Virus record (IMG/VR): IMGVR_UViG_3300035698_010374
Span: 1 to 24,430 of that record
Origin: a virus
DNA length: 24,430 nt
Strand: one strand, 5' to 3'
Both the position numbers and the translations under genes were made by a program. The notes beneath the pieces are model-generated. The model ran no database searches. It was not told the DNA's origin and was given only the letters and a program-made list of their open reading frames with translations. Of the stretch, positions 4,289-24,294 are shown piece by piece. Numbering within the stretch: the stretch's first letter is position 1; each line of letters begins with the position of its first letter.

Positions 4289-5332
4289 ATGCCATCAATT
4301 ATGAAACCAGTAGACAACTCAATAGGAAACCTACTGGGTAGTCTGTTTGGCTTGCCATTGCAGATGCAGCAACGAGATCAGTTATTACAAAAGCAAGAAC
4401 TTGCACAGCAAAGCGCAAACTCAACCATTGATAGGAATAGCTCTTATGCTGATCTAAATCGCCAGAAGATGAGCGCAGGCCAGGCACAACAAGATGCCTT
4501 GATGAGTCCAGACCTGGAAACCGCGCTAATGTCTCTGGTTAACCGTGGCGCAGATGGGCAGACAACGCCTAGCAATCTGGCTGCTTTGTTTAGAGCAAAC
4601 CCTAAAAATACAATGAGCAATGTGGGAGATCTATCGCAGGATGTTCAGAGAGGCAATTTTGCTGGCCAGGTAGGTGCACAACAAGACTTGAGCACTAAAA
4701 CAGGCCAATCAAACATGGCTAACCTGGCGGCCAACAAGGGCCTAACTCCTGCTTACTCTGGTAACGCCAATGGCATTACTACCAATGAGATAACTGGTGG
4801 CCAGCAAGCGCCCAGCGCCCAGGTGCAAGCGGCCCTGGTGGAGCAGAACAAGTCTGGAAAGGCTAAGGGCAAGGGCGACTCTATGATTGATACCTCAAAG
4901 AGCCTAATGGAATATTTAAAGTCTGATGTTATTGATGAGGATGGTGAGAAGGTAGTTAATTTTGAAACTGGTCTGGTTGATAGGCGGCCAGATAATGCTA
5001 AACGCGCACAGTGGGTAAATTTCTTATCACTCCCTGAAAACCAAGGTAAGGATGAGAAGGCTATAGCTATTCATTTTATGAAGCTGATGGATGCTCAGGC
5101 GGGAATTAATGGGAGCCTGGATGGTTTATATAAATCACCTCAACCTGGCCAGGCACCTGCACCTGCACCAGTATCGGCGGTATCTTCTCAACCAAGCCAA
5201 CAAGCTGCACCACAGAAAGCACCAGTATCAGCAACCACTGAGGCAGAGTACAATGCTTTACCAGATGGCACTATTTATGTTGGTCCTGATGGTAAGACTA
5301 GAACTAAGGGTAAGAAAAAAGGAGCTCAGTAA
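4289..5332 (+). CDS. Gln/Ala-rich virion-associated protein of unknown family
   Basis: A 347-residue protein preceded by a strong AGGAG at 4277-4281. It contains a helical Gln-rich N-terminal third, an 'LNRQKMSAGQ' segment and a Pro/Ala/Gln-rich linker (about 285-315). The C-terminal motif 'YNALPDGTIYVGPDGKTR' precedes a Lys-rich end. That last motif (LPxGxxYVxPDGKxR) recurs in phage internal or ejection proteins placed before giant C-terminal genes. The position between the gp14-like pair and the gp16-like giant matches gp15 of T7. It is less than half the length of gp15 and I see no sequence similarity to it. A virion role is inferred from position only. Confidence 0.6.
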   Translation: MPSIMKPVDNSIGNLLGSLFGLPLQMQQRDQLLQKQELAQQSANSTIDRNSSYADLNRQKMSAGQAQQDALMSPDLETALMSLVNRGADGQTTPSNLAALFRANPKNTMSNVGDLSQDVQRGNFAGQVGAQQDLSTKTGQSNMANLAANKGLTPAYSGNANGITTNEITGGQQAPSAQVQAALVEQNKSGKAKGKGDSMIDTSKSLMEYLKSDVIDEDGEKVVNFETGLVDRRPDNAKRAQWVNFLSLPENQGKDEKAIAIHFMKLMDAQAGINGSLDGLYKSPQPGQAPAPAPVSAVSSQPSQQAAPQKAPVSATTEAEYNALPDGTIYVGPDGKTRTKGKKKGAQ

Positions 5333-8300
5333 ATGAATTGGTGGGCACAGGATGAAGCAGTAGACCAAAATGCAGCGCTTGGTTCAGGAGCCGCTATGCC
5401 CTCGACTGTTGCGGCAAGTGAGCCAAGCGCTGTTAACTTTTGGGAGCAGGATGAAGCGATAGAGCCAGAGCCAGTAGAGCTTGCTGATGGAAACCTTTTT
5501 ACCTCGGCAGGCGCAAGCATGGTTAATGCAGCCATTGGCCTAGAGTCTGGTCTTGCCGCCACACCTGCAACCGTAATGCGTGCTGGCCGTGGCCTTTATG
5601 ATTATTTCCCTGACTCTGCCAAAAGCGTGCTTGCTGATGGTATGGGTGCGACAGTTAACATGACGCCTGCTGGTGGTTTGATGCAGTTGTTTGGTGATAA
5701 CGCTGGCGCTCTTGAGGATGCCAGTAACGCTGGTGCAGACTTTATTGATAGCGGATCTACCTACCTCAATAATAATTTTGATGCGTTTAAGCGCGTAAAT
5801 CAAAAAGGTCAGATGGCTGACCAGGCTGTTGGCTCTGCCCTGGGTGGTGATCTATCTCAATTAGGATCTGCGGTTTCTGATCCAGAACAATGGGCTGCCG
5901 CTATAGGCAATGCGGTTCCTACCTTGTTTGCAGCAATGAAGGGCGGCTTGCCATTTATAGCGGCCCTGGAAGCAAGTGAGGCATCTAAAAACGCCAGGGA
6001 CTATGAGAAAAAAACTGGTGTTGCTATCTCTGATTCTGATTTTGCTAAATCAGTTACGATCACTACATCAATAAACTCAGCGCTTGAAAGAATACTACCT
6101 AAGAAATTAGCTGATAAGGCTCTACAGGGCGGCTGGATAAAACGGTTTCTAACTGGTGGTGGTATAGAGTTTCTTACGGAAGGGGCTCAGAACACCAATA
6201 CAAACTTAAACAGTCCAGATCCAGAACAGGCGTGGCATGAAGGTTTGCTGCAATCTCTCATGGGCGGCTTTGGTTCTGGCGCGGGTATGTCAGTGGCCCA
6301 GGGTGATCAAACTCCTGCTGCTGTAGCACCTATCCCACTCCCAACAGGTGATAACTTTCGTGATTCTCCTGAGGCCATGAGTGGGCTAGACCAGCTTTTT
6401 AATATAGCTGATGGTGCTCAAGCCTACTCTAATTTACCTCAAGGCAATAATGATGAGTCGGTTAATAATGATCTTTCTGGCACGATGGCTGATGAGAATC
6501 GTTTTAACTCACTGGACAATGCGCCTGGTGGGTTCTTTGAGAATGATGAGAAGGTTGAGCAAAAAGAAAAAGGACCGATAGCCGATAACTTTATGCGCTC
6601 TCCTGAGGAAATGGAGGCATTAAGTCAGCTAGATGGTTTGGTTGGTGGATCTCAAGCCTATTCTGACTTACCTCAAGGTAATAATAATGAGTCGGTTAAT
6701 AATGATCTTAGCGGCACTATGGCCGATAGCAATCTGTTTGATGCTATTGATCAAGGCCAGGGCCGTGGTAGTGATGTTGATCCTGTAGCAAAAGCCAAGC
6801 CTACTGTTAAGCCTACAGTCAAACCAACAAATGATGATGATGATGAGTCTGGTGGTGGTGGATCTCCTCAACCAGCAGCCAGGGTTGACTTAAATCAGCC
6901 CGATGATACTGGCACTGGCCAGGATGATATTGAGATTAAGCCTTTATTTCCTTCTAAGGCTTCACCACTAGCAGGCGAAAAGGTAACGACTAAGGATAAC
7001 AGTGGTAGTCCAGTTGAATCACAATATGAGCTATCTGAGGCTAGTCAACTCAACGCCTCGCATGATGCTAATGGTGCAGAGAATCCAAACTACGATAAGG
7101 ACAAAAAAGGCAAGCAGCCCAGGGGCCGCGATAGCGCAGGATCTATATTCCAGATTAGGAAAATAGCTTCTGATAAAAAAATGACTCCTGAATGGTTGGG
7201 CCAATCTGAGCATGTAGATAAGGGCGCTCCAATGACTGACCAGCAGGGTGATGCTCGTTCTGGTAATGGCCGTATTGCTGGCATACAACTTGCCTACTCA
7301 AATGATGGCGATGCAGCTAAACGGTACAAGCAGTACCTTGTGGATAACGCTGAAAAATTTGGCTTTGACCGTGATGCTGTTGAGTCAATGAAGCAGCCAA
7401 TACTGCACAAAACTATCCTCAATGATTTCACAGATGCACAGTGGAAAGCATTTGCTCAGAATGCCAACAAGCCTACTACCCTGGGAATCCCTGCCGCTGA
7501 ACAAGCACAGCAAGATGCTGAGGGCATAGTTGATATTATTTCTGAGTTCAATCCTGATCAAAGCGGCAATGTTGGCGCTGCCAGTAACCGCCAGTTTGTT
7601 AATAAGTTTATGCAAATGATCGGCTCAGATGAGGCTAATGGCTTTATAAACAGTTCAGGTTATCTCAGCAAGCGTGGTGCCGATAGGATCACTACAGCCA
7701 TATTCCAGGCGGCGTATAAGAATGATGAGCTCTTGGGCATTCAATCGGAATCAACCGATAATGATATTAAGAATGTCACCAATGCCCTGGTTAAAGCTGC
7801 TGGCTCTTTTGCTAAGTCTCGCCAGACCGATGAAACCATTACTGATGAGCGCGTAAACTCGCTGCTTGATGCTATTGATGTGGTGCGTAGATCACGCAGA
7901 AACCACAACACACTTGACCATGAGTTATCTCTAGGCGATATGGTTAATCCAATATCTGCTGATACTGAGGCTCTGGCCAGGCAGATAGATGAAAACATTG
8001 GCTCTGCCAAAGAGCTCACCAATATATTTACTGATATTGCTGATGGTACGGCTATTGACGCGGATCGCTCTGCATTGAAAAAGTCTAACCTGGATATGTT
8101 TGATCAGATTGATGGCGGTTCGCCAGAAGTCAAACCAACATCAACACCAAATGAGACTGATGTTGGTATTGATGGTGATCTAAACATTCCTGATCTCTTT
8201 GCAAACACTGAGCTACGACCAGGCACAAAGCAGAAACAGCTTGATGATGGTGTATCTGCTTTTGAAAAGGTTTTTGGCAACATTAAAAAGAAAGTGGGTG

Positions 8301-11300
8301 ACAACATATCCCTGATTGGCGCAAACATATCCAAAAAATTCAAAGAAGGTAAGCCAAACAGCCTGGTTGGTATGAAAGTCTCAAACTTCGCTGACCTATC
8401 AATCATGGCCCAGGTTTACCGTGATCCCCGTTTTGAGACTTTTCGCATTATCTATGTGAATAGCGGAAAGGTTGTGGGTGAAAATGCCGTATCACAAAGA
8501 ATGCCTGCATCCGTTAGGTTTCCTGGCCAGCATCTTGAGGACATAATAAGGCGCGATGCATCTACGTTTGGCGCTACCTCCATGTATCTTCTTCATAATC
8601 ATCCCAGTGGGTCGTCAGAGCCATCCAGGGCTGACGTTCAGTTAACCAAAGACGTTGTTGGCTGGGTCGGGCTGCCAGAAATGAAAGGCCACGTTGTTTT
8701 GGATAACGATGAATATTCTGTTATATCTGCTGATGGTAGGGTTTCTGATTTTGGCATTGACAATAATGACATTACTGGCGGCCTTGATGCTGTTAAGCCA
8801 AACCAGTTTTTAGGTACGGTTATAAACAATGATAGTGGTTTTGCGAATATAGCTAAAACCTATGAAACCAGCATGAGTGATCCTGGCGTGGTGGTTGTGA
8901 TAGCCACTGACTCAAAAGGATCTGTAAACACTGTTTTTTCTATTGATGTGGCTGGCGCTAAAGCGGCCCTGGAAGGAAAAACTGCGGCCACACTAAGACG
9001 ATTACTTAGGGAGTCTGGTTCTGCTGGTAGGATCTTCGCTGTGATTCACAAGGATGCCGATCAATCCCTATCAGACGAAATTAAAAACGCTGGTATTTTT
9101 ACCGATGTTTATCAAGACAATCAAACAGCCTCTGTTAGTGGTGATGTAGGATCTATACAAACCTTATTCCCTAGCAACAGCGAAAACGATATAGCTGGCG
9201 GCCAAAAGCTTGATGATAGCGGCAATGCTGATTACCAGGAAGATATTCGGCTTAGCGACTCTGAGCCTGCTGCTGATTTGGTTGTAACTCACAACCTGAG
9301 TGAAGATAACCTTATTCATGCCATAGAGCTTGGGGGGCTTGCTGCGCCATCTTTGGCAATTCAAAAGGGCTCTCTTGGGTTTGGTTCGTTTGGTGAGATT
9401 AGCCTGTTGGCAGATCCAGGCATTATCAATGATAAAACAATTAGCTTTTTCACCTCCGATATCTACAGTCCTCGGCACACCAGGGCTATCTACGATATAG
9501 ATTTTTACGTTAATAAAAAATTAGCGGAGCAGCTTACTGAGTCTGCGCCTTACCTCAGAGCTCCATCAGCAAACGAGATGGAGAGTGGGCCTAATGAGTA
9601 CCTGAGAAATGAATCTCTGCAACTACTGTTTCTAAAGTCTAAAGGTATTGCGCCAAAACCGAAAAAGAAAAAGGCTAAAAGCAAAGAGCACGAAAAGGCG
9701 ATAAGCTATGTAAAAAGAAAGTATGGCCCCGATGCTAAAACGCATCAATACCGCACAGATCCCACTGTTGTAGGCTTGGCCACAAAGCACTATCTTGATA
9801 TCCAGACCATGCGCTATGAGGATGGTAAAATGTTTGGTGGTGATTATGTTGTTGATGGGGAGTTAAACCAAAACTTAATGTATGGATTCATTAATAGCGT
9901 TGATGCTGGTGTTGAGTCCAGAATTGATGCGTATGCAATGAAGGACGCGATTAGAGCTAAGCTAGGTAGAAGCAAAAAACTGCAAACTGAATTTGATGCT
10001 TATGCTATGAATTTATTTAATGATGCAGTAGTAGGCCAAAATATATTTAAAGGGCATACGCCAGGAGGCACAAGGAAGTACGCTAAGTACAATCTTGATA
10101 ATGTTGTAAAAGATATGATTGCTGAGTTGCAAGGCGGTGAGGGTTTTCATTATGGCGGCCCTGGGTTCGTTAGATCATCGGTGGCAAAAAAACTTCTCTC
10201 GGTAAACAGCGCCAAAAACAACCGAGATAAAATAATATCCAGCACTGAAATGGATGCTATTAAGGAGGAGTCAAAAGAAAAGCATGATGATGCTATGGAG
10301 TCACTAAAGGAGCATTACAAATTTGAAACTGATTCTTTCCATTATGATGCCGGCGTTGAGTCGTCAATGATGGCTTATGCCCTTGGTCGGGAATCTCTTT
10401 CTGAATCGTTTGATAATGTGACTGAGGCTAAAAAAATAATAGATGAGCATCTGGATTATCTTGCTGGCCTACCAACAGAGTATTTTGAAGGAAAGGCAAA
10501 AAGGGCAATGGATCTATCTGAGTTCAAAGTTGCCGTTGTTCCCAATGGAGTAAAAGGGGACCATATTGATCACCTTAAAAATGCTGGCGTTACCATTAGA
10601 CGATATAACCCAAAAATTGAGGGTGATCGTGAAAGGGTTGTCTCCAAACAGAACAAGGTTTTATTTTCTAACAAAGACAAGAACGATAGCGGCAATGGTC
10701 GCTCTATTGAGCAGATTGAATCTGATATAAAACCGTTCCTGGTTAAGTGGAAGAATGCGCCAACAATCAAAATTGTGGCCACGTTTAAAGATGGCCTGGA
10801 TTGGATTGGTAACGCTCCTGATGGCTTTGAGAACAATAAAAACGTAGCTGGTATGTGGACCAGCAAGGGCATTGTTCTTGTTGCTGAAAACCTGCACACC
10901 ACTGATGAGGCAATAGGAGTACTCCTGCATGAGACTATTGGCCATGATGGTATTCGCAAGGCGTTTAAGGATATCACTGGCTCAAGCGAGATTAATGTTC
11001 TGATGGCTGGCGTTTGGCAGGCTCATAAGAAAGAGATAATGGCTGAGGCAAAGCGGCGTGGTATTAAAACTGGCACTACTAAAGAAAAGTACATTGCTGC
11101 TGATGAGTGGATAGCTAAGCTGGCTGAAACGCCAAGGGGAAAACTCTCCCAGGCAATGAACAAGCTACTGCAATACATTCAGAAAGTATTAAAAGACCTG
11201 GGCCTAATGAGTAAGAATATTACTAAGGCTGACATATTAGCAATGCTATCCAGGGCTGAGCAGTTACTTGAGTCTGGATCGGGCGCTAAGGCTACTCCTG

Positions 11301-14300
11301 GCGGCGATAATGTTGTTCTGGCGGCTAAGTCTGGATATAAAGGCAATGACCAGGGTGAGGCTGCTGAGTGGTTAGCTGCTAAGGCCAAGGGCCTGGATAT
11401 GTCTCAGGCTGCGCGTATGAAGCGTGCCGGGGCTATGGGGTTTGATACACTAAACACAGTCACCAGGACAGATGGATTTAAGAATATTAGCGCTTATCGT
11501 GATCACACATACTTTGTTATGGGTGATGGAGAGGCCGCATGGGAGTTCTCTGAGCAGTTTGCCATTGATCTAAATGGTCGGGACTTTAAAGGTGATGTTT
11601 CTGATCTTGTTGGGGCTAATCCTAGAAAGGTTGGGAAAAACATTTATATACCTGAGCCAAATGATTTTTTAATAAAAGCACAAAACACAGCAACTGCATC
11701 CGATTTAAGAAACCTGGGGTTTGGCAAGCAAACGGTTTCTCACATAACAGATGAAATGGTTGAGGCTTTAAGGGTTGCTGGATTTGATAGCGCCAAAGGT
11801 GACATAGATGGAATGATAGGAAAAGAGATTGTTGTGTTTAATCCCAATCAGATACGCTCTATCAACGCTGCCTTTGATCCAGACAATGCCGATAGCAGCA
11901 ACATACTAGCCAGTAACGGCATGTTTGATGATCTTGGTGCTGCAATGGATAGTATGGACACCAGCCAGGATAATAATGGCTCTCAGAGCAATCCTGGTGT
12001 AGCCATAGGGGGTAATCAACCACCAGCAAGCCCACCAGTAGGCCCGGGGCGCAATGGTGGCCAGGGCACTACTCCACCAGCTAACGGTTATATTTCTGAT
12101 ACTGATTGGAAAGATGGCCTTGCCAGTAAAATTATTGATCGGTTTCATTCCCTAGTTAAAGCGCAAAAAACGCTTGGTGCTCAAACTGAGGATGCTGATG
12201 CTGATCTTGCAGTTACTCTTTATCCTGGGCGTGCGCGTGACCAGGTTGATCAGTTTACTGAGGATGTAACTAAACCGCTGGTTAAAATGATCCACGACTC
12301 AGGGCATTCCTTTGAGGAGGTGGGCCGATACCTGCACGCCAGGCACGCCAAAGAAGCGAATGCAGTGCTGCAACGCAGAAATCCTAATATCAATAACAAC
12401 GATATCTTGGCTGGTATGGACAATGTTGATGCGGCAAGCATACTGCACGACTACAGAAATGATGCCGCTATGCAGGCTATTGCTACCGCTATTGATGATG
12501 TTACCGATAATCATGTAACCACTATGGTTAGTAATGAGCTATTAACCCAGGAAGAAGCAGATACCTGGCGCTCACTTTACAAGCATTACGTTCCGTTAAA
12601 TCGTCTTGAGGTTGAGGATTCCATGCCTGGCGCTGGTCGAGGCTTTGATGTACGAGGCAAGGAGGCAAAGTTTCGCGCTGGATCATTTAAGGATGTAGAC
12701 CATGCCAACCTGGTAGCCAGGATATTGGCCCAAAGTGAAACGGCCCTGGTGCGATCTGAGAAGAATAAAGTAGCTCAAACCGTATACAACATGGCCAAAG
12801 ATAATCCTGATGCTGACTATTGGCTTGTTGACCAGGTGAGTGAAAAAACCTACAGAAAGGCTGATGGTACTGTTGGCAAGCGCAAGGATGTTAATGGCGA
12901 TTATGTTTTATCTGCCAAGTTTGATGGTGTTAGCAAGTACGTTCTTTTTAACGATGAGAATGCTCACGCTAAGAAAATGGCTGAACAGCTAAAGAATCTT
13001 GATGGCGCAGATATGAGCCGCTTCACTGCTACGGCGCAAAAGGTTAACCGATACCTGGCAATGATTAACACCTCACTATCACCTGAGTTTGTTATCTCTA
13101 ACTTTTTCCGTGATGTGCAAACTGCTGCCTACAATCTTACTGACACTGAGCTTGCAGATATGCAGGTTAAAGTGGTCAAGGGCCTTAAAGGTGCAGGGCT
13201 TGGCATTCGCAAAGTTCTACGCGCAAAGCCTGGTGATCCTGCTCCTACTGGTGTGTGGGCTGATGCGTTTAATGATTTCAGGGCGCATGGCGGTATGACA
13301 GGCTGGGTACAGAGCTATGAGGATGCGGCTGGTCGCATGGATCAGATACGCAAAGATATCCGTAATGAAACAAAGCCTGGCTGGAAGCAGGTGGCTGCTC
13401 TAGGCAAGGTTATTGGTGACTATAATATGGTCGTTGAGAATGCTGTTCGTCTTTCAGCTTATAAGGCTGGTGTTGATGCTGGCATGAGTAAGGCCAAAGC
13501 AGCACGCCTGGCCAAGCAGTTAACGGTGGATTTCAATAGAAAGGGTGAATGGGGCGCTGCAATAAACGCTTATTACCTGTTTTATAATGCTTCGGTACAA
13601 GGTTCTGCCAGGCTGATTAGAGCCTTGGCTAACCCAAAGAACAAGAAGCTAAGAGCTATGGTGGCATCTACCGTGGCTATCTCTGCAATGAATGACATTC
13701 TTGCCAGGATGCTTGGTGGTGAGGATGATGATGGCGAGACTCTTTACGACAAAATTCCTGATCATGTTAAGGACCGTAACCTGGTAATCATGGATTACTT
13801 TGGCTGGCGCGATACGAAGGATGGCGTATTTTTAAAGATACCGCTACCGTGGGGCTATAACGTGTTTCATGTTGCTGGCCAGGAAATTGGTTCAGCGATA
13901 TCAAAAGCATCTGGTATAAACCCTGAGTGGTCTGTTGGTCCTTCTGTAATGAGGGTTCTTTCAAGTACCCTGCACTCGTTCAACCCTATCCAGGATGGAT
14001 CTTTTGGGCAAACTCTTATGCCTACCGTGTCTGATCCATACATGCGGATCACACAAAATACAGATTGGCATGGCGGTCCTGTTTATCCTGATTACAATAA
14101 GTTTGATCCAAATTTTCGCAAGCATTACGGCAATGTTAGGCCAGAGAGCCAATGGGTAGCCAATAAGCTGGCTGATCTAAGTATGGATAAAGATACTTTA
14201 AAATCTCGTGTTGATTGGTCGCCTGAGTGGATTGATGTTTATGTTGATTTTGCCACTGGCTCTGCTGGTCGGGTGGTCGCTGATGCGGTTTCGGTCACTG

Positions 14301-14674
14301 GTCAACTTCTTCGCGGTGAGGAGATAGAGCGTAGATCAATACCGATGTATAGAAAATTAGTAGGTGAGGTGTCGGTATCTGATCGGCGTAGATTGTTCTA
14401 TGATGCTTACTATGAGGTTTTGGATGTTGATAAAGAACTTAAAAAGCGTAAAGGTGAGGACAACCACAAAGAACTTGTTAAGGGTGTTGGTGGTCGTACC
14501 AAGCTAATAGCACCAGCCAAGATTACTAAAAATAAGTTACGCAAACTAAAGGCGAAAAAGAAAAAGTATAAGGCTGATGGTAATGATGCTGCTTTAAAGA
14601 AAATTGAAACTGAAATGGATTCGGTAATGGCTAAATTTATGGCTAGATACCGCGCCGAAATGTATAAAGATTAG
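5333..14674 (+). CDS. giant polyvalent virion protein: ParB-like, RadC/JAB, HEXXGH, ART-like, LPD38-like
   Basis: A 3113-residue protein in the gp16 position; likely injected with the DNA (inference). Visible order is as follows. Two Trp-containing 'NxWxQDEA' repeats lie at residues 2-10 and 35-42. A hydrophobic, Gly/Ala-rich segment spans about 48-325. A 78-residue-period repeat lies at about 340-465, followed by an Asp/Gly linker. A DdrB/ParB-like domain spans about 545-910 with GNGRI at 644-648. A RadC-type JAB domain spans about 990-1150 with Glu1050, His1088, His1090, Ser1098 and Asp1101, a complete JAMM site. A phage-specific domain with 'THNLSEDNL...GGLAAPSLAI' starts near 1317. A metallopeptidase-like domain carries HETIGH at 1866-1871. 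An ART-like segment spans about 2009-2190. An LPD38-like C-terminus spans about 2260-3113. These are known building blocks of phage polyvalent proteins. No lytic transglycosylase domain was recognised. The start directly abuts the previous stop and has GGAG upstream. Confidence 0.85.
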   Translation: MNWWAQDEAVDQNAALGSGAAMPSTVAASEPSAVNFWEQDEAIEPEPVELADGNLFTSAGASMVNAAIGLESGLAATPATVMRAGRGLYDYFPDSAKSVLADGMGATVNMTPAGGLMQLFGDNAGALEDASNAGADFIDSGSTYLNNNFDAFKRVNQKGQMADQAVGSALGGDLSQLGSAVSDPEQWAAAIGNAVPTLFAAMKGGLPFIAALEASEASKNARDYEKKTGVAISDSDFAKSVTITTSINSALERILPKKLADKALQGGWIKRFLTGGGIEFLTEGAQNTNTNLNSPDPEQAWHEGLLQSLMGGFGSGAGMSVAQGDQTPAAVAPIPLPTGDNFRDSPEAMSGLDQLFNIADGAQAYSNLPQGNNDESVNNDLSGTMADENRFNSLDNAPGGFFENDEKVEQKEKGPIADNFMRSPEEMEALSQLDGLVGGSQAYSDLPQGNNNESVNNDLSGTMADSNLFDAIDQGQGRGSDVDPVAKAKPTVKPTVKPTNDDDDESGGGGSPQPAARVDLNQPDDTGTGQDDIEIKPLFPSKASPLAGEKVTTKDNSGSPVESQYELSEASQLNASHDANGAENPNYDKDKKGKQPRGRDSAGSIFQIRKIASDKKMTPEWLGQSEHVDKGAPMTDQQGDARSGNGRIAGIQLAYSNDGDAAKRYKQYLVDNAEKFGFDRDAVESMKQPILHKTILNDFTDAQWKAFAQNANKPTTLGIPAAEQAQQDAEGIVDIISEFNPDQSGNVGAASNRQFVNKFMQMIGSDEANGFINSSGYLSKRGADRITTAIFQAAYKNDELLGIQSESTDNDIKNVTNALVKAAGSFAKSRQTDETITDERVNSLLDAIDVVRRSRRNHNTLDHELSLGDMVNPISADTEALARQIDENIGSAKELTNIFTDIADGTAIDADRSALKKSNLDMFDQIDGGSPEVKPTSTPNETDVGIDGDLNIPDLFANTELRPGTKQKQLDDGVSAFEKVFGNIKKKVGDNISLIGANISKKFKEGKPNSLVGMKVSNFADLSIMAQVYRDPRFETFRIIYVNSGKVVGENAVSQRMPASVRFPGQHLEDIIRRDASTFGATSMYLLHNHPSGSSEPSRADVQLTKDVVGWVGLPEMKGHVVLDNDEYSVISADGRVSDFGIDNNDITGGLDAVKPNQFLGTVINNDSGFANIAKTYETSMSDPGVVVVIATDSKGSVNTVFSIDVAGAKAALEGKTAATLRRLLRESGSAGRIFAVIHKDADQSLSDEIKNAGIFTDVYQDNQTASVSGDVGSIQTLFPSNSENDIAGGQKLDDSGNADYQEDIRLSDSEPAADLVVTHNLSEDNLIHAIELGGLAAPSLAIQKGSLGFGSFGEISLLADPGIINDKTISFFTSDIYSPRHTRAIYDIDFYVNKKLAEQLTESAPYLRAPSANEMESGPNEYLRNESLQLLFLKSKGIAPKPKKKKAKSKEHEKAISYVKRKYGPDAKTHQYRTDPTVVGLATKHYLDIQTMRYEDGKMFGGDYVVDGELNQNLMYGFINSVDAGVESRIDAYAMKDAIRAKLGRSKKLQTEFDAYAMNLFNDAVVGQNIFKGHTPGGTRKYAKYNLDNVVKDMIAELQGGEGFHYGGPGFVRSSVAKKLLSVNSAKNNRDKIISSTEMDAIKEESKEKHDDAMESLKEHYKFETDSFHYDAGVESSMMAYALGRESLSESFDNVTEAKKIIDEHLDYLAGLPTEYFEGKAKRAMDLSEFKVAVVPNGVKGDHIDHLKNAGVTIRRYNPKIEGDRERVVSKQNKVLFSNKDKNDSGNGRSIEQIESDIKPFLVKWKNAPTIKIVATFKDGLDWIGNAPDGFENNKNVAGMWTSKGIVLVAENLHTTDEAIGVLLHETIGHDGIRKAFKDITGSSEINVLMAGVWQAHKKEIMAEAKRRGIKTGTTKEKYIAADEWIAKLAETPRGKLSQAMNKLLQYIQKVLKDLGLMSKNITKADILAMLSRAEQLLESGSGAKATPGGDNVVLAAKSGYKGNDQGEAAEWLAAKAKGLDMSQAARMKRAGAMGFDTLNTVTRTDGFKNISAYRDHTYFVMGDGEAAWEFSEQFAIDLNGRDFKGDVSDLVGANPRKVGKNIYIPEPNDFLIKAQNTATASDLRNLGFGKQTVSHITDEMVEALRVAGFDSAKGDIDGMIGKEIVVFNPNQIRSINAAFDPDNADSSNILASNGMFDDLGAAMDSMDTSQDNNGSQSNPGVAIGGNQPPASPPVGPGRNGGQGTTPPANGYISDTDWKDGLASKIIDRFHSLVKAQKTLGAQTEDADADLAVTLYPGRARDQVDQFTEDVTKPLVKMIHDSGHSFEEVGRYLHARHAKEANAVLQRRNPNINNNDILAGMDNVDAASILHDYRNDAAMQAIATAIDDVTDNHVTTMVSNELLTQEEADTWRSLYKHYVPLNRLEVEDSMPGAGRGFDVRGKEAKFRAGSFKDVDHANLVARILAQSETALVRSEKNKVAQTVYNMAKDNPDADYWLVDQVSEKTYRKADGTVGKRKDVNGDYVLSAKFDGVSKYVLFNDENAHAKKMAEQLKNLDGADMSRFTATAQKVNRYLAMINTSLSPEFVISNFFRDVQTAAYNLTDTELADMQVKVVKGLKGAGLGIRKVLRAKPGDPAPTGVWADAFNDFRAHGGMTGWVQSYEDAAGRMDQIRKDIRNETKPGWKQVAALGKVIGDYNMVVENAVRLSAYKAGVDAGMSKAKAARLAKQLTVDFNRKGEWGAAINAYYLFYNASVQGSARLIRALANPKNKKLRAMVASTVAISAMNDILARMLGGEDDDGETLYDKIPDHVKDRNLVIMDYFGWRDTKDGVFLKIPLPWGYNVFHVAGQEIGSAISKASGINPEWSVGPSVMRVLSSTLHSFNPIQDGSFGQTLMPTVSDPYMRITQNTDWHGGPVYPDYNKFDPNFRKHYGNVRPESQWVANKLADLSMDKDTLKSRVDWSPEWIDVYVDFATGSAGRVVADAVSVTGQLLRGEEIERRSIPMYRKLVGEVSVSDRRRLFYDAYYEVLDVDKELKKRKGEDNHKELVKGVGGRTKLIAPAKITKNKLRKLKAKKKKYKADGNDAALKKIETEMDSVMAKFMARYRAEMYKD

Positions 14675-21359: not shown

Positions 21360-22292
21360 CTATTGTGGGGTTGTGGGTATTGTTATGTTGGTTGTCCTGG
21401 CTTCCACTGCTCTATGCAGTTTGGCTATTAATGGCTTGTTATCAAAGTATTCTCCCTCTGATTTTTTAAGTAGTTTGGTTTTAAATGTGTCGCCAACTAT
21501 TATCACGCTGCTGGCTTCTGGTATAAATTCTAACGTGGCTATCTGCTTATCTAGCCACTCCTCAACCTTGGCATACGCCAGTGCTGTGTTGTCGTAAGCT
21601 ATCTTATCCAGCTCGGCTTTCTTGGCTTTGTATTCATTGCCAATCACCTCCTTGAAGTCTGCCATACCAAATGACTTGGCATACAGGTACGCGCCAGCAT
21701 AAATCTCTTTTAGCTCATCAAAGGTGTCGCTGCTGCGGATATTATCAACATAATCCTCAGTGATAACGCCTGGCAAGGCCCAGGCTGGCAGATCAGGTGC
21801 AGCCCAGTTGATGTGCCGGCCAGTCTTTTTATCCTCGGCGTGGTTGTCGGCGCAATCGTATCGGCTGTTAGCTAGATTGCATATAGCAAAATACTGCTCA
21901 AGGTTGTAGAGATACCTGCCCATACCCCACTGCACTGCTGAGCGTTTCATTGAATTGGATAGGGCGCCTTTTAGCGGCTCTATATTGGTGTGCTCTGCAC
22001 CATCCCACTTAGTTATCCACTCCCATGTACCGCCTGGATTGGAGATTCTAATACTTAGACCACAAAGATAGCCTTTTCCATGTGGTGTTGGTTTGTATTC
22101 GTTGCGCCAGGAATCAAAACCAACAACATCGTCCAGGCGTTGTTGTATGGCTCTATTGGTTATGTAGGGAACAACAATGGCCCAGGGCTTTCCGTTTTTG
22201 CTTATGCCGCATTGTTGGGTTCTCCATTCCAGATCCTCAGGGGAAAATGGTTCTTGCAGGAGTCGGGTGGTTCGTTCTAAATCGTGTTTCAT
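21360..22292 (-). CDS. Rad52-type single-strand annealing protein
   Basis: A 310-residue protein. Its first 135 residues carry the Rad52/Rad22 signature found in phage annealing proteins: 'LLQEPFSPEDLEWRTQQ' (11-27), 'PYITNRAIQQRLDDVVG' (42-58), 'WITKWDGAE' (92-100) and 'SMKRSAVQWGMGRYLYNLE' (114-132). The following 'WAAPDLPAWALPG' is also common in these phage proteins. They anneal complementary single strands during phage recombination and concatemer formation. The C-terminal half is helical and likely binds a partner. The start has a TGAGG 8 bases upstream and a good promoter begins 30 bases further up. This is the most secure functional call in the early region. Confidence 0.85.
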   Translation of the reverse strand: MKHDLERTTRLLQEPFSPEDLEWRTQQCGISKNGKPWAIVVPYITNRAIQQRLDDVVGFDSWRNEYKPTPHGKGYLCGLSIRISNPGGTWEWITKWDGAEHTNIEPLKGALSNSMKRSAVQWGMGRYLYNLEQYFAICNLANSRYDCADNHAEDKKTGRHINWAAPDLPAWALPGVITEDYVDNIRSSDTFDELKEIYAGAYLYAKSFGMADFKEVIGNEYKAKKAELDKIAYDNTALAYAKVEEWLDKQIATLEFIPEASSVIIVGDTFKTKLLKKSEGEYFDNKPLIAKLHRAVEARTTNITIPTTPQ

Positions 22293-23226: not shown

Positions 23227-23557
23227 GGTAATCCCCTAATAGTTTAATAAGTGCTCTGTGTGCGTCAGCATAATCACTAACGCATGTAACATTGGTTTTA
23301 CCTAGCTCAGGCAATACTTCACCCAATAGCGGCGTTAGTACCTTAGCCATTTTGATCATGCGCTGCTCAACAAGTGACTTATCAGTGTTGAGAATATGCA
23401 GCCTCATGGCTGTGGCCTTACTCCAAAGATCCACAACAATATCACTTAGCTCTGGCTTGCCCTGGACCTTAATCAAGCTGGCTACCGCCACCAGGTTAGG
23501 CACAAAGTCAGGATCAGTCAGGTCGTGCTCGTGTTCGCCTATCTGGATGCGTTTCAT
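23213..23557 (-). CDS. conserved-looking phage protein of unknown function
   Basis: A 114-residue acidic, mostly helical protein beginning 'MKRIQIGEHEHDLTDPDFVP' with 'LWSKATAMRLHIL' and 'MIKMAKVLTPLLGEVLPELG' helices in the middle. There is no membrane segment, Cys cluster or recognised motif. It overlaps the preceding gene by 4 bases (ATGA) and the following one by 14 bases, so the three are translated as one unit. A regulatory role is suggested only by its neighbours. Confidence 0.65.
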   Translation of the reverse strand: MKRIQIGEHEHDLTDPDFVPNLVAVASLIKVQGKPELSDIVVDLWSKATAMRLHILNTDKSLVEQRMIKMAKVLTPLLGEVLPELGKTNVTCVSDYADAHRALIKLLGDYHEQN

Positions 23558-23781
23558 GCCTGGGCCTTTTGGATCTTAGCTATATGCTGTGGGATTAGCT
23601 TGTAATAACCCGCAGCCGAACCTCGCCATGATTTAAAAGCCCTTACATTGTATTGGCTGTTTATGCGGTTAATGATGTTGGGCAGGTTTTGACTACAATC
23701 CGATTGATGAACGGATTCTCCAGACATTAAAACCAACAAAACACGATCTTTTTCTGATGCTCTTTTTTTACAATTACTCAT
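23554..23781 (-). CDS. putative winged-helix regulatory protein
   Basis: A 75-residue protein and first gene of the leftward block. The sequence 'EKDRVLLVLMSGESVHQSDC...LPNIINRINSQYNVRAF' followed by 'GSAAGYYKLIP' matches the rhythm of small phage winged-helix proteins. In these, a helix ending in Gly-Glu-Ser is followed by a recognition helix with an 'IINRI' core and a beta-hairpin wing. The ATG has AAGAGG 9 bases upstream. It lies opposite the LexA-like gene across 182 bp of divergent control region, so it may take part in the switch. The family assignment is tentative. Confidence 0.6.
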   Translation of the reverse strand: MSNCKKRASEKDRVLLVLMSGESVHQSDCSQNLPNIINRINSQYNVRAFKSWRGSAAGYYKLIPQHIAKIQKAQA

Positions 23782-23876
23782 ACTGTTTACCTCTTAGTTA
23801 ATTTACTGAGTAGCCCTGTTGCCAGGGCCACTGGTTAAATTAAAATAACACAACAACAAAACGCTGCTGATACAGT

Positions 23877-23894
23877 AGTATACCATACTATACT
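23877..23894. promoter_or_regulatory. palindrome containing the leftward extended -10
   Basis: AGTATA-CCATAC-TATACT is a perfect 6-bp inverted repeat with a 6-base centre. Read on the - strand it gives TGG followed by TATACT, an extended -10 element for the leftward regulatory block (start of transcription near 23870). A repressor bound here would cover that promoter directly. No good -35 is seen, as is usual with extended -10 promoters. Confidence 0.5.
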
Positions 23895-23908: not shown

Positions 23909-23937
23909 TTGTTTCTGTGTATAATAACAGGTATACT
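23909..23937 (+). promoter_or_regulatory. rightward promoter of the LexA-like gene
   Basis: TTGTTT (23909-23914) and TATACT (23932-23937) are separated by exactly 17 bases, giving a start near 23944 and a leader of about 20 bases. An alternative -10, TATAAT at 23920-23925, lies inside the SOS box but lacks a well-spaced -35. Either way the LexA box overlaps the promoter core. Confidence 0.6.
23915..23930. promoter_or_regulatory. perfect LexA/SOS box
   Basis: CTGTGTATAATAACAG matches the CTGT-N8-ACAG consensus of the gammaproteobacterial LexA operator, with the usual A/T-rich centre. It fills the spacer between the candidate -35 and -10 elements, the classic blocking position. Host LexA should repress this promoter and release it on DNA damage; the phage LexA-like protein may bind the same site. 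Confidence 0.8.
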
Positions 23938-23963
23938 TATTTTTCACACAGCGAGGATCTAAA

Positions 23964-24206
23964 ATGTTGGAAGATTTAACAGCAGTACAATTAGTGGTTT
24001 TGAGTATGATTATGAACTACATAGCGGAACATCAGCGGCCGCCAACTAATGTGGAGATAGCTAGAAAAATGAAATGGTCTAGCGCTAACGCTGCCAGCGA
24101 TGTGCTAAAGGCCCTGGAAAAAAAGGAATATATAGAGTTGCGGCCAAATACGGCCAGGAACATCAAAATTTTAAATCACTCGCTTGTATGGATAGATGTG
24201 CATTAA
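23964..24206 (+). CDS. LexA DNA-binding-domain-only protein
   Basis: An 80-residue protein matching the N-terminal winged-helix domain of LexA over almost its whole length. The correspondences are 'LTAVQ' (5-9) to LTARQ, 'PPTNVEIARKM' (26-36) to PPTRAEIAQRL, 'SANAAS' (40-45) to SPNAAE, then 'LKALEKKEYIE' and a final 'ARNIKIL'. Ser40, Asn42 and Ala43 keep residues that contact CTGT in E. coli LexA; the two following Glu are Ser45 and Asp46. The whole S24 peptidase/dimerisation half is absent, so it cannot self-cleave. The GAGG at 23953-23956 supports the ATG at 23964. It is expressed from a promoter with a perfect SOS box and may compete with host LexA or autoregulate. Confidence 0.85.
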   Translation: MLEDLTAVQLVVLSMIMNYIAEHQRPPTNVEIARKMKWSSANAASDVLKALEKKEYIELRPNTARNIKILNHSLVWIDVH

Positions 24207-24294
24207 ACAGCGCAAAGTTGATGTTTCTCAGAGGCGATGTGAGGCTATAAAGGATTGGAATAAAGATAACCCTATAGGCGAACCCCATGAGTGA
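24196..24294 (+). CDS. 32-codon ORF coupled to the LexA-like gene
   Basis: This ATG lies within the last codons of the LexA-like gene (11-base overlap), and the ORF ends in an overlap with another short ORF at 24287. The product is highly charged ('MCIKQRKVDVSQRRCEAIKD', then an 'NPIGEPHE' end) with two Cys. There is no clear ribosome binding site, so expression would depend on coupling. It is reported because overlapping order is the rule in this genome. Confidence 0.3.
   Translation: MCIKQRKVDVSQRRCEAIKDWNKDNPIGEPHE

Follow-up and report, generated by a model that had tools for sequence, protein, structure and literature searches.

A stand-alone LexA DNA-binding domain behind a candidate SOS box at the Cro position of a probably marine phage

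The window analysed here, a stretch of viral DNA of 24,430 nucleotides, carries near its right end a small gene (positions 23964 to 24206, plus strand) whose 80-amino-acid product is a LexA winged helix, with the DNA-binding domain only. Residues 3-65 match the Pfam family LexA_DNA_bind (PF01726; E-value 6.8e-17, model positions 2-64 of 65) and residues 4-71 match the PHROG profile phrog_362 (E-value 1.5e-16). On the NCBIfam lexA model (TIGR00498) the protein covers positions 2-70 of 203 and scores 57.8 bits, below the cut-off of 110.95. Among solved structures, the protein is nearest in sequence to LexA DNA-binding domains in the PDB (E-value 2e-9). Of five AlphaFold models predicted from single-sequence input, the best (pLDDT 86) displays the three helices and the wing of LexA, and its best fold match in the PDB is 3jso, a complex of LexA with DNA. 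A stop codon follows directly after residue 80, so that the peptidase and dimerisation half is missing, and with it the hinge, the Ala-Gly cleavage site, the S24 peptidase and the catalytic Ser/Lys; the C-terminal tail is short (about 9 residues). The profile matches and the position of the stop codon thus agree with the first-pass annotation, which had described a LexA winged helix with no second half. A short ORF (24196-24294, plus strand), read from the sequence and its translations, overlaps the stop codon of the LexA-domain gene (MCIKQRKVDVSQRRCEAIKDWNKDNPIGEPHE) and is possibly the next gene of the operon; no relatives of it were found among the loci compared. The remainder after position 24294 has no long frame, and the contig stops at 24430, 224 nt beyond the LexA-domain gene, with the rest of the operon, and any CI gene located elsewhere, falling outside the window.

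Upstream, an AT-rich intergenic stretch of 182 nt separates the LexA-domain gene from a leftward ORF of 75 aa. A putative sigma-70 promoter was read from the sequence at 23909-23937 (plus strand), with TTGTTT (23909-23914) as the -35 element, a 17-nt spacer and TATACT (23932-23937) as the -10 element, and GAGG (23953-23956, plus strand), 7 nt before the ATG, is the likely ribosome-binding site. The spacer contains the SOS-box-like candidate operator CTGTGTATAATAACAG (CTGT-N8-ACAG; 23915-23930, no strand assigned), and an alternative, exact -10 element, TATAAT (23920-23925), lies inside it. As the box spans both the promoter spacer and the internal TATAAT, bound LexA would block either start. 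The box is the sole exact match to CTGT-N8-ACAG in the window, where 0.35 would be expected by chance, at least one match being found in 29 of 100 shuffles; dinucleotide shuffling of the intergenic stretch yields an exact box with a probability of 0.6%. Scored with a matrix made up of E. coli boxes, CTGTGTATAATAACAG reaches 14.2 bits, compared with 13.3-25.5 for the matrix's own boxes. The candidate box ranks among the weaker ones for the LexA of E. coli and is mediocre outside its core. Of the perfect box in a 17-bp spacer that had been proposed earlier, the exact core and the filled spacer stand, but the flanks do not reach that description and the -35 element agrees at only 3 of 6 positions; the promoter was absent from a consensus promoter scan.

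The 75-aa ORF (23554-23781, minus strand) belongs to no known family and is the first gene of a divergent leftward operon, which also contains an Erf/Rad52-like annealing protein (21360-22292, minus strand; PF04098, E-value 2.8e-19; phrog_1097, E-value 6.4e-66) that served as the synteny anchor. In seven viral contigs sharing Erf and in a P. shioyasakiensis prophage, itself near-identical to one of the seven (L098), the divergent point consists of a Cro-like gene of 67-72 aa and, facing it on the strand of Erf, a CI-like repressor; the representatives tested with Pfam gave P22_Cro, CI with Peptidase_S24, CII and replication protein O. Phage vB_Pun_Y3 has Cro at the divergent point and no CI there. 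In the window, the 75-aa gene lies leftward, where the relatives have their CI-S24 repressor, the LexA domain occupies the place of Cro, and no CI repressor was found at the divergent point. Synteny places the LexA-domain gene at the head of the rightward early genes, pointing away from the recombination operon, as expected of a functional analogue of Cro. The P22-type Cro of the marine lambdoids (L098-L111, L180 and vB_Pun_Y3) has the same position and is also a small DNA-binding protein, but it has the HTH Cro fold (PF14549) instead of that of LexA, usually faces CI-S24 and has no SOS box in its region. The 80-aa protein does not match P22_Cro, Pfam returning LexA_DNA_bind instead, and no exact SOS box was found in the available regions of 19 Erf-sharing relatives. 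When a hidden repressor was sought among the leftward 75-aa and 92-aa proteins, neither matched a family, no BLAST relation was found between them, and the structure of the 92-aa protein was predicted with low confidence only.

The divergent region contains a second palindromic, repeated element, AGTATACCATACT(ATACT) (23877-23894), a candidate operator for another regulator. Within the leader of the leftward operon, a 21-bp inverted repeat (81%) is located at 23798-23843, and as minus-strand RNA this leader is far more stable than its shuffles (-34.4 kcal/mol, z -3.9). The inverted-repeat region has no match in Rfam and is possibly an attenuator or antitermination site. Elsewhere in the window, the virion-gene region encodes a giant protein of 3113 aa (5333-14674), of which residues 999-1128 are RadC-like, as well as a 167-aa protein for which no viral relatives were found; for the gp10-like protein of this phage, only two distant viral relatives were found.

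The Erf/Rad52-like protein has its nearest relatives in Pseudoalteromonas and Vibrio phages and in the P. shioyasakiensis prophage (45%). These relatives, and they only, make a marine gammaproteobacterium the likely host, and the phage is probably marine. An exact CTGT-N8-ACAG occurs within 150 nt upstream of 21 of 24 full-length LexA-type genes, at distances of 20-126 nt; these genes come mostly from the order of the Pseudoalteromonas prophage host, and those that match the window protein best are among them, as are some paralogues. That the LexA of the likely host group uses this motif, on which the earlier proposal depended, is supported by these sequences. Full-length host LexA has the same DNA-binding domain as the window protein and, like the window gene, CTGT-N8-ACAG upstream, but it also has the hinge, the catalytic Ser/Lys and the dimerisation domain that the window protein lacks.

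The recognition helix begins with the residues SSANAASDV (codons at 24078-24104, plus strand), which pair in alignments with RSPNAAEEH of E. coli LexA. The DNA-contact residues of E. coli LexA are S39, N41, A42, E44 and E45 (PMC3091678), of which the first three are retained in the 80-aa protein, as is A43, and two of the five are changed, E44 to S and E45 to D. Compared with the LexAs of the likely host group, which read SANAAEEH or SPNAAEEH, the window protein reads SANAASDV. With E44 and E45 replaced, the phage protein may read another operator, as the gp6 protein of phage GIL01 does.

Stand-alone LexA domains are, judging from profile matches, a known and common type of phage protein. They had been presented as unusual in the first-pass annotation, a view that did not survive the homologue search: the phrog_362 family comprises at least 573 stretches encoding relatives in viral contigs (one scan), with annotated members in phages SfV, SfII, mEp460, mEp390, Ayreon and EPP-1, and none of the 93 relatives examined has an open frame approaching the length of a full LexA. 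The lambdoid members (SfV orf42, mEp460 gp46, and those of Ayreon, mEp390 and EPP-1; 69-161 aa) resemble the window protein in being peptidase-less LexA winged helices, with a CTGT-type recognition helix (SPNAA or SVNAA). They differ in lying mid-operon, near rusA, dam and Q, and in having no SOS box within 250 bp; neither the mid-operon place nor the C-terminal extension, both typical of these members without defining them, is found in the window gene. In a non-redundant set of 63 further LexA-domain genes from phages, 62 have an upstream ORF on the same strand that overlaps them or lies at most 30 nt away, and the exception (L003) reflects a wrongly chosen start, its annotated start overlapping the preceding gene. 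For the window gene, the nearest ORF of this kind is 384 nt away. Scanning of the 250 nt upstream at the 93 other phage loci gave no exact SOS box, a contrast with the 21 of 24 LexA-type genes that is descriptive, since the latter were not randomly drawn. Short-frame LexA-domain genes also occur in the sampled bacterial genomes (L195, L196, L198 and L199; open frames of 113-144 aa), and no SOS box lies upstream of L195 or L196. Two LexA matches among plasmids were discarded, as both turned out on inspection to be full-length lexA. Among the viral loci and bacterial short-frame genes inspected, no gene for the DNA-binding domain only, other than that of the window, has an SOS box, and the combination of a box in its own promoter with the position of Cro was found at no other locus examined. 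No close homologue of the 80-aa protein was confirmed in viral contigs or genome contigs, and no homologue bearing the same box was found.

A search of the literature gave no established function for peptidase-less LexA proteins beyond that of GIL01 gp6. In this betatectivirus of Bacillus thuringiensis, host LexA is the lysogenic repressor and controls the production of gp6, a truncated LexA homologue with the DNA-binding domain only; gp6 binds the palindrome GaCACAn-nTGTGaC when present at nanomolar levels and is an activator of the late promoter P3 (PMC6182141). GIL01 is thus a precedent both for host LexA as a phage repressor and for a truncated LexA as a phage regulator. Like the window protein, gp6 is phage-encoded, small (ORF 4350-4550, about 66 aa) and limited to the DNA-binding domain, and its production under host LexA has a possible counterpart in the candidate SOS box of the window gene. 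However, gp6 is of the Gram-positive LexA type and activates late genes, whereas the window protein is of the gammaproteobacterial type; moreover, the controlling promoter in GIL01, P1, drives a multi-gene early operon, and in the window the candidate box lies over the promoter of the LexA-domain gene itself. The nanomolar binding of gp6 also argues against the earlier suggestion that a domain deprived of its dimerisation half would bind weakly (PMC6182141). Other phage regulators directly under host LexA, which tie the phage switch to SOS, are the antirepressors GfoA/GftA of Gifsy, Tum of 186 and AntC of N15 (PMC3121763). They inactivate a phage repressor and, unlike the window protein, contain no LexA domain.

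The solitary LexA domain, the box over its promoter, the position of Cro and a recognition helix similar to that of host LexA together suggest that the first rightward early gene of this phage may encode a Cro-like regulator built on the LexA winged helix, with host LexA in the part of CI. We regard this reading as quite possible and prefer it, if tentatively. Box, domain and position are what the sequence shows, and from them we infer each regulatory step as follows. Host LexA would bind the box and hold the rightward early promoter low. Activation of RecA, by DNA damage or phage replication, would remove host LexA and open the promoter. The phage LexA domain, having no cleavage site, would then build up and act at the divergent region. 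In the simplest case it would bind the vacated CTGT-N8-ACAG box in its turn and so turn down its own transcript. In lambda, Cro likewise turns its own transcript down. Host LexA would thus take the role of CI and the phage domain that of Cro, and autoregulation, offered as an alternative in the first-pass annotation, becomes the reading preferred here.

The main rival is an activator similar to GIL01 gp6, with a different target: host LexA would control the domain, which would bind another palindrome and, through contact with RNA polymerase, activate other phage promoters, those of late or replication genes. Such an activator, rather unlikely as it seems to us, has its precedent in gp6, which activates P3 from its own palindrome under host-LexA control (PMC6182141), and the changes E44S and E45D, together with the lack of a second exact CTGT-N8-ACAG in the window as a target, would fit it. 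However, no promoter emerged as a candidate target, the late promoter was not recognised in the window, and the retention of S39, N41, A42 and A43, as in a LexA reading CTGT, hardly suggests a complete change of specificity.

Improbable, in our estimate, is an origin in which the first ~70 codons of a host lexA were captured along with the autoregulatory box, autoregulation being then the main function and host control incidental. The box distances of the sampled lexA genes, an arrangement like that in the window, would agree with such a capture, as would the SANAA read by some host LexAs as well as by the window protein, and full-length host LexAs are among the closest matches to the latter (46-49% identity). 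Against this, in a tree set up to distinguish host lexA capture from membership of the phage family, the 80-aa protein forms a long branch whose placement has no support, and the window gene has a single box where many host lexA genes have a pair.

A box that arose by chance or that serves another factor, the gene being then an ordinary winged-helix regulator with no link to SOS, is very unlikely; the frequency of exact matches in shuffles of 24 kb, the boxless 93 loci and the score at the weak end would allow it, but the box coincides precisely with the promoter of a gene for a LexA domain, where the shuffles put it at about 0.6% for the intergenic stretch. Muting of the host SOS response at large, the earlier proposal in which the uncleavable domain sits on host SOS boxes after LexA cleavage and damps SOS during infection, is possible but less likely than the Cro-like reading and, in itself, just as unlikely as a chance box: a helix related to that of host LexA, expression expected just when LexA is lost and many phage genome copies raising the level of the domain could serve it, but with no dimerisation half the domain should have only modest affinity for boxes that are scattered and present in single copy, two of the five contacts differ, the early-switch position gives a simpler role and the sequence offers no positive evidence for it.

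The Cro-like reading may be carried one step further, to a switch of the lambdoid type in which host LexA replaces CI, the phage domain replaces Cro and both compete for one SOS box. This stricter form is unlikely as matters stand; such competition would wire the lysis decision directly to the SOS state of the host. If the Cro-like circuit outlined above is right, it would be a phage switch whose repressor and counter-repressor share one DNA-binding fold and differ in their owners, host and phage, and it would provide a testable role for the peptidase-less LexA proteins found in hundreds of phage contigs.
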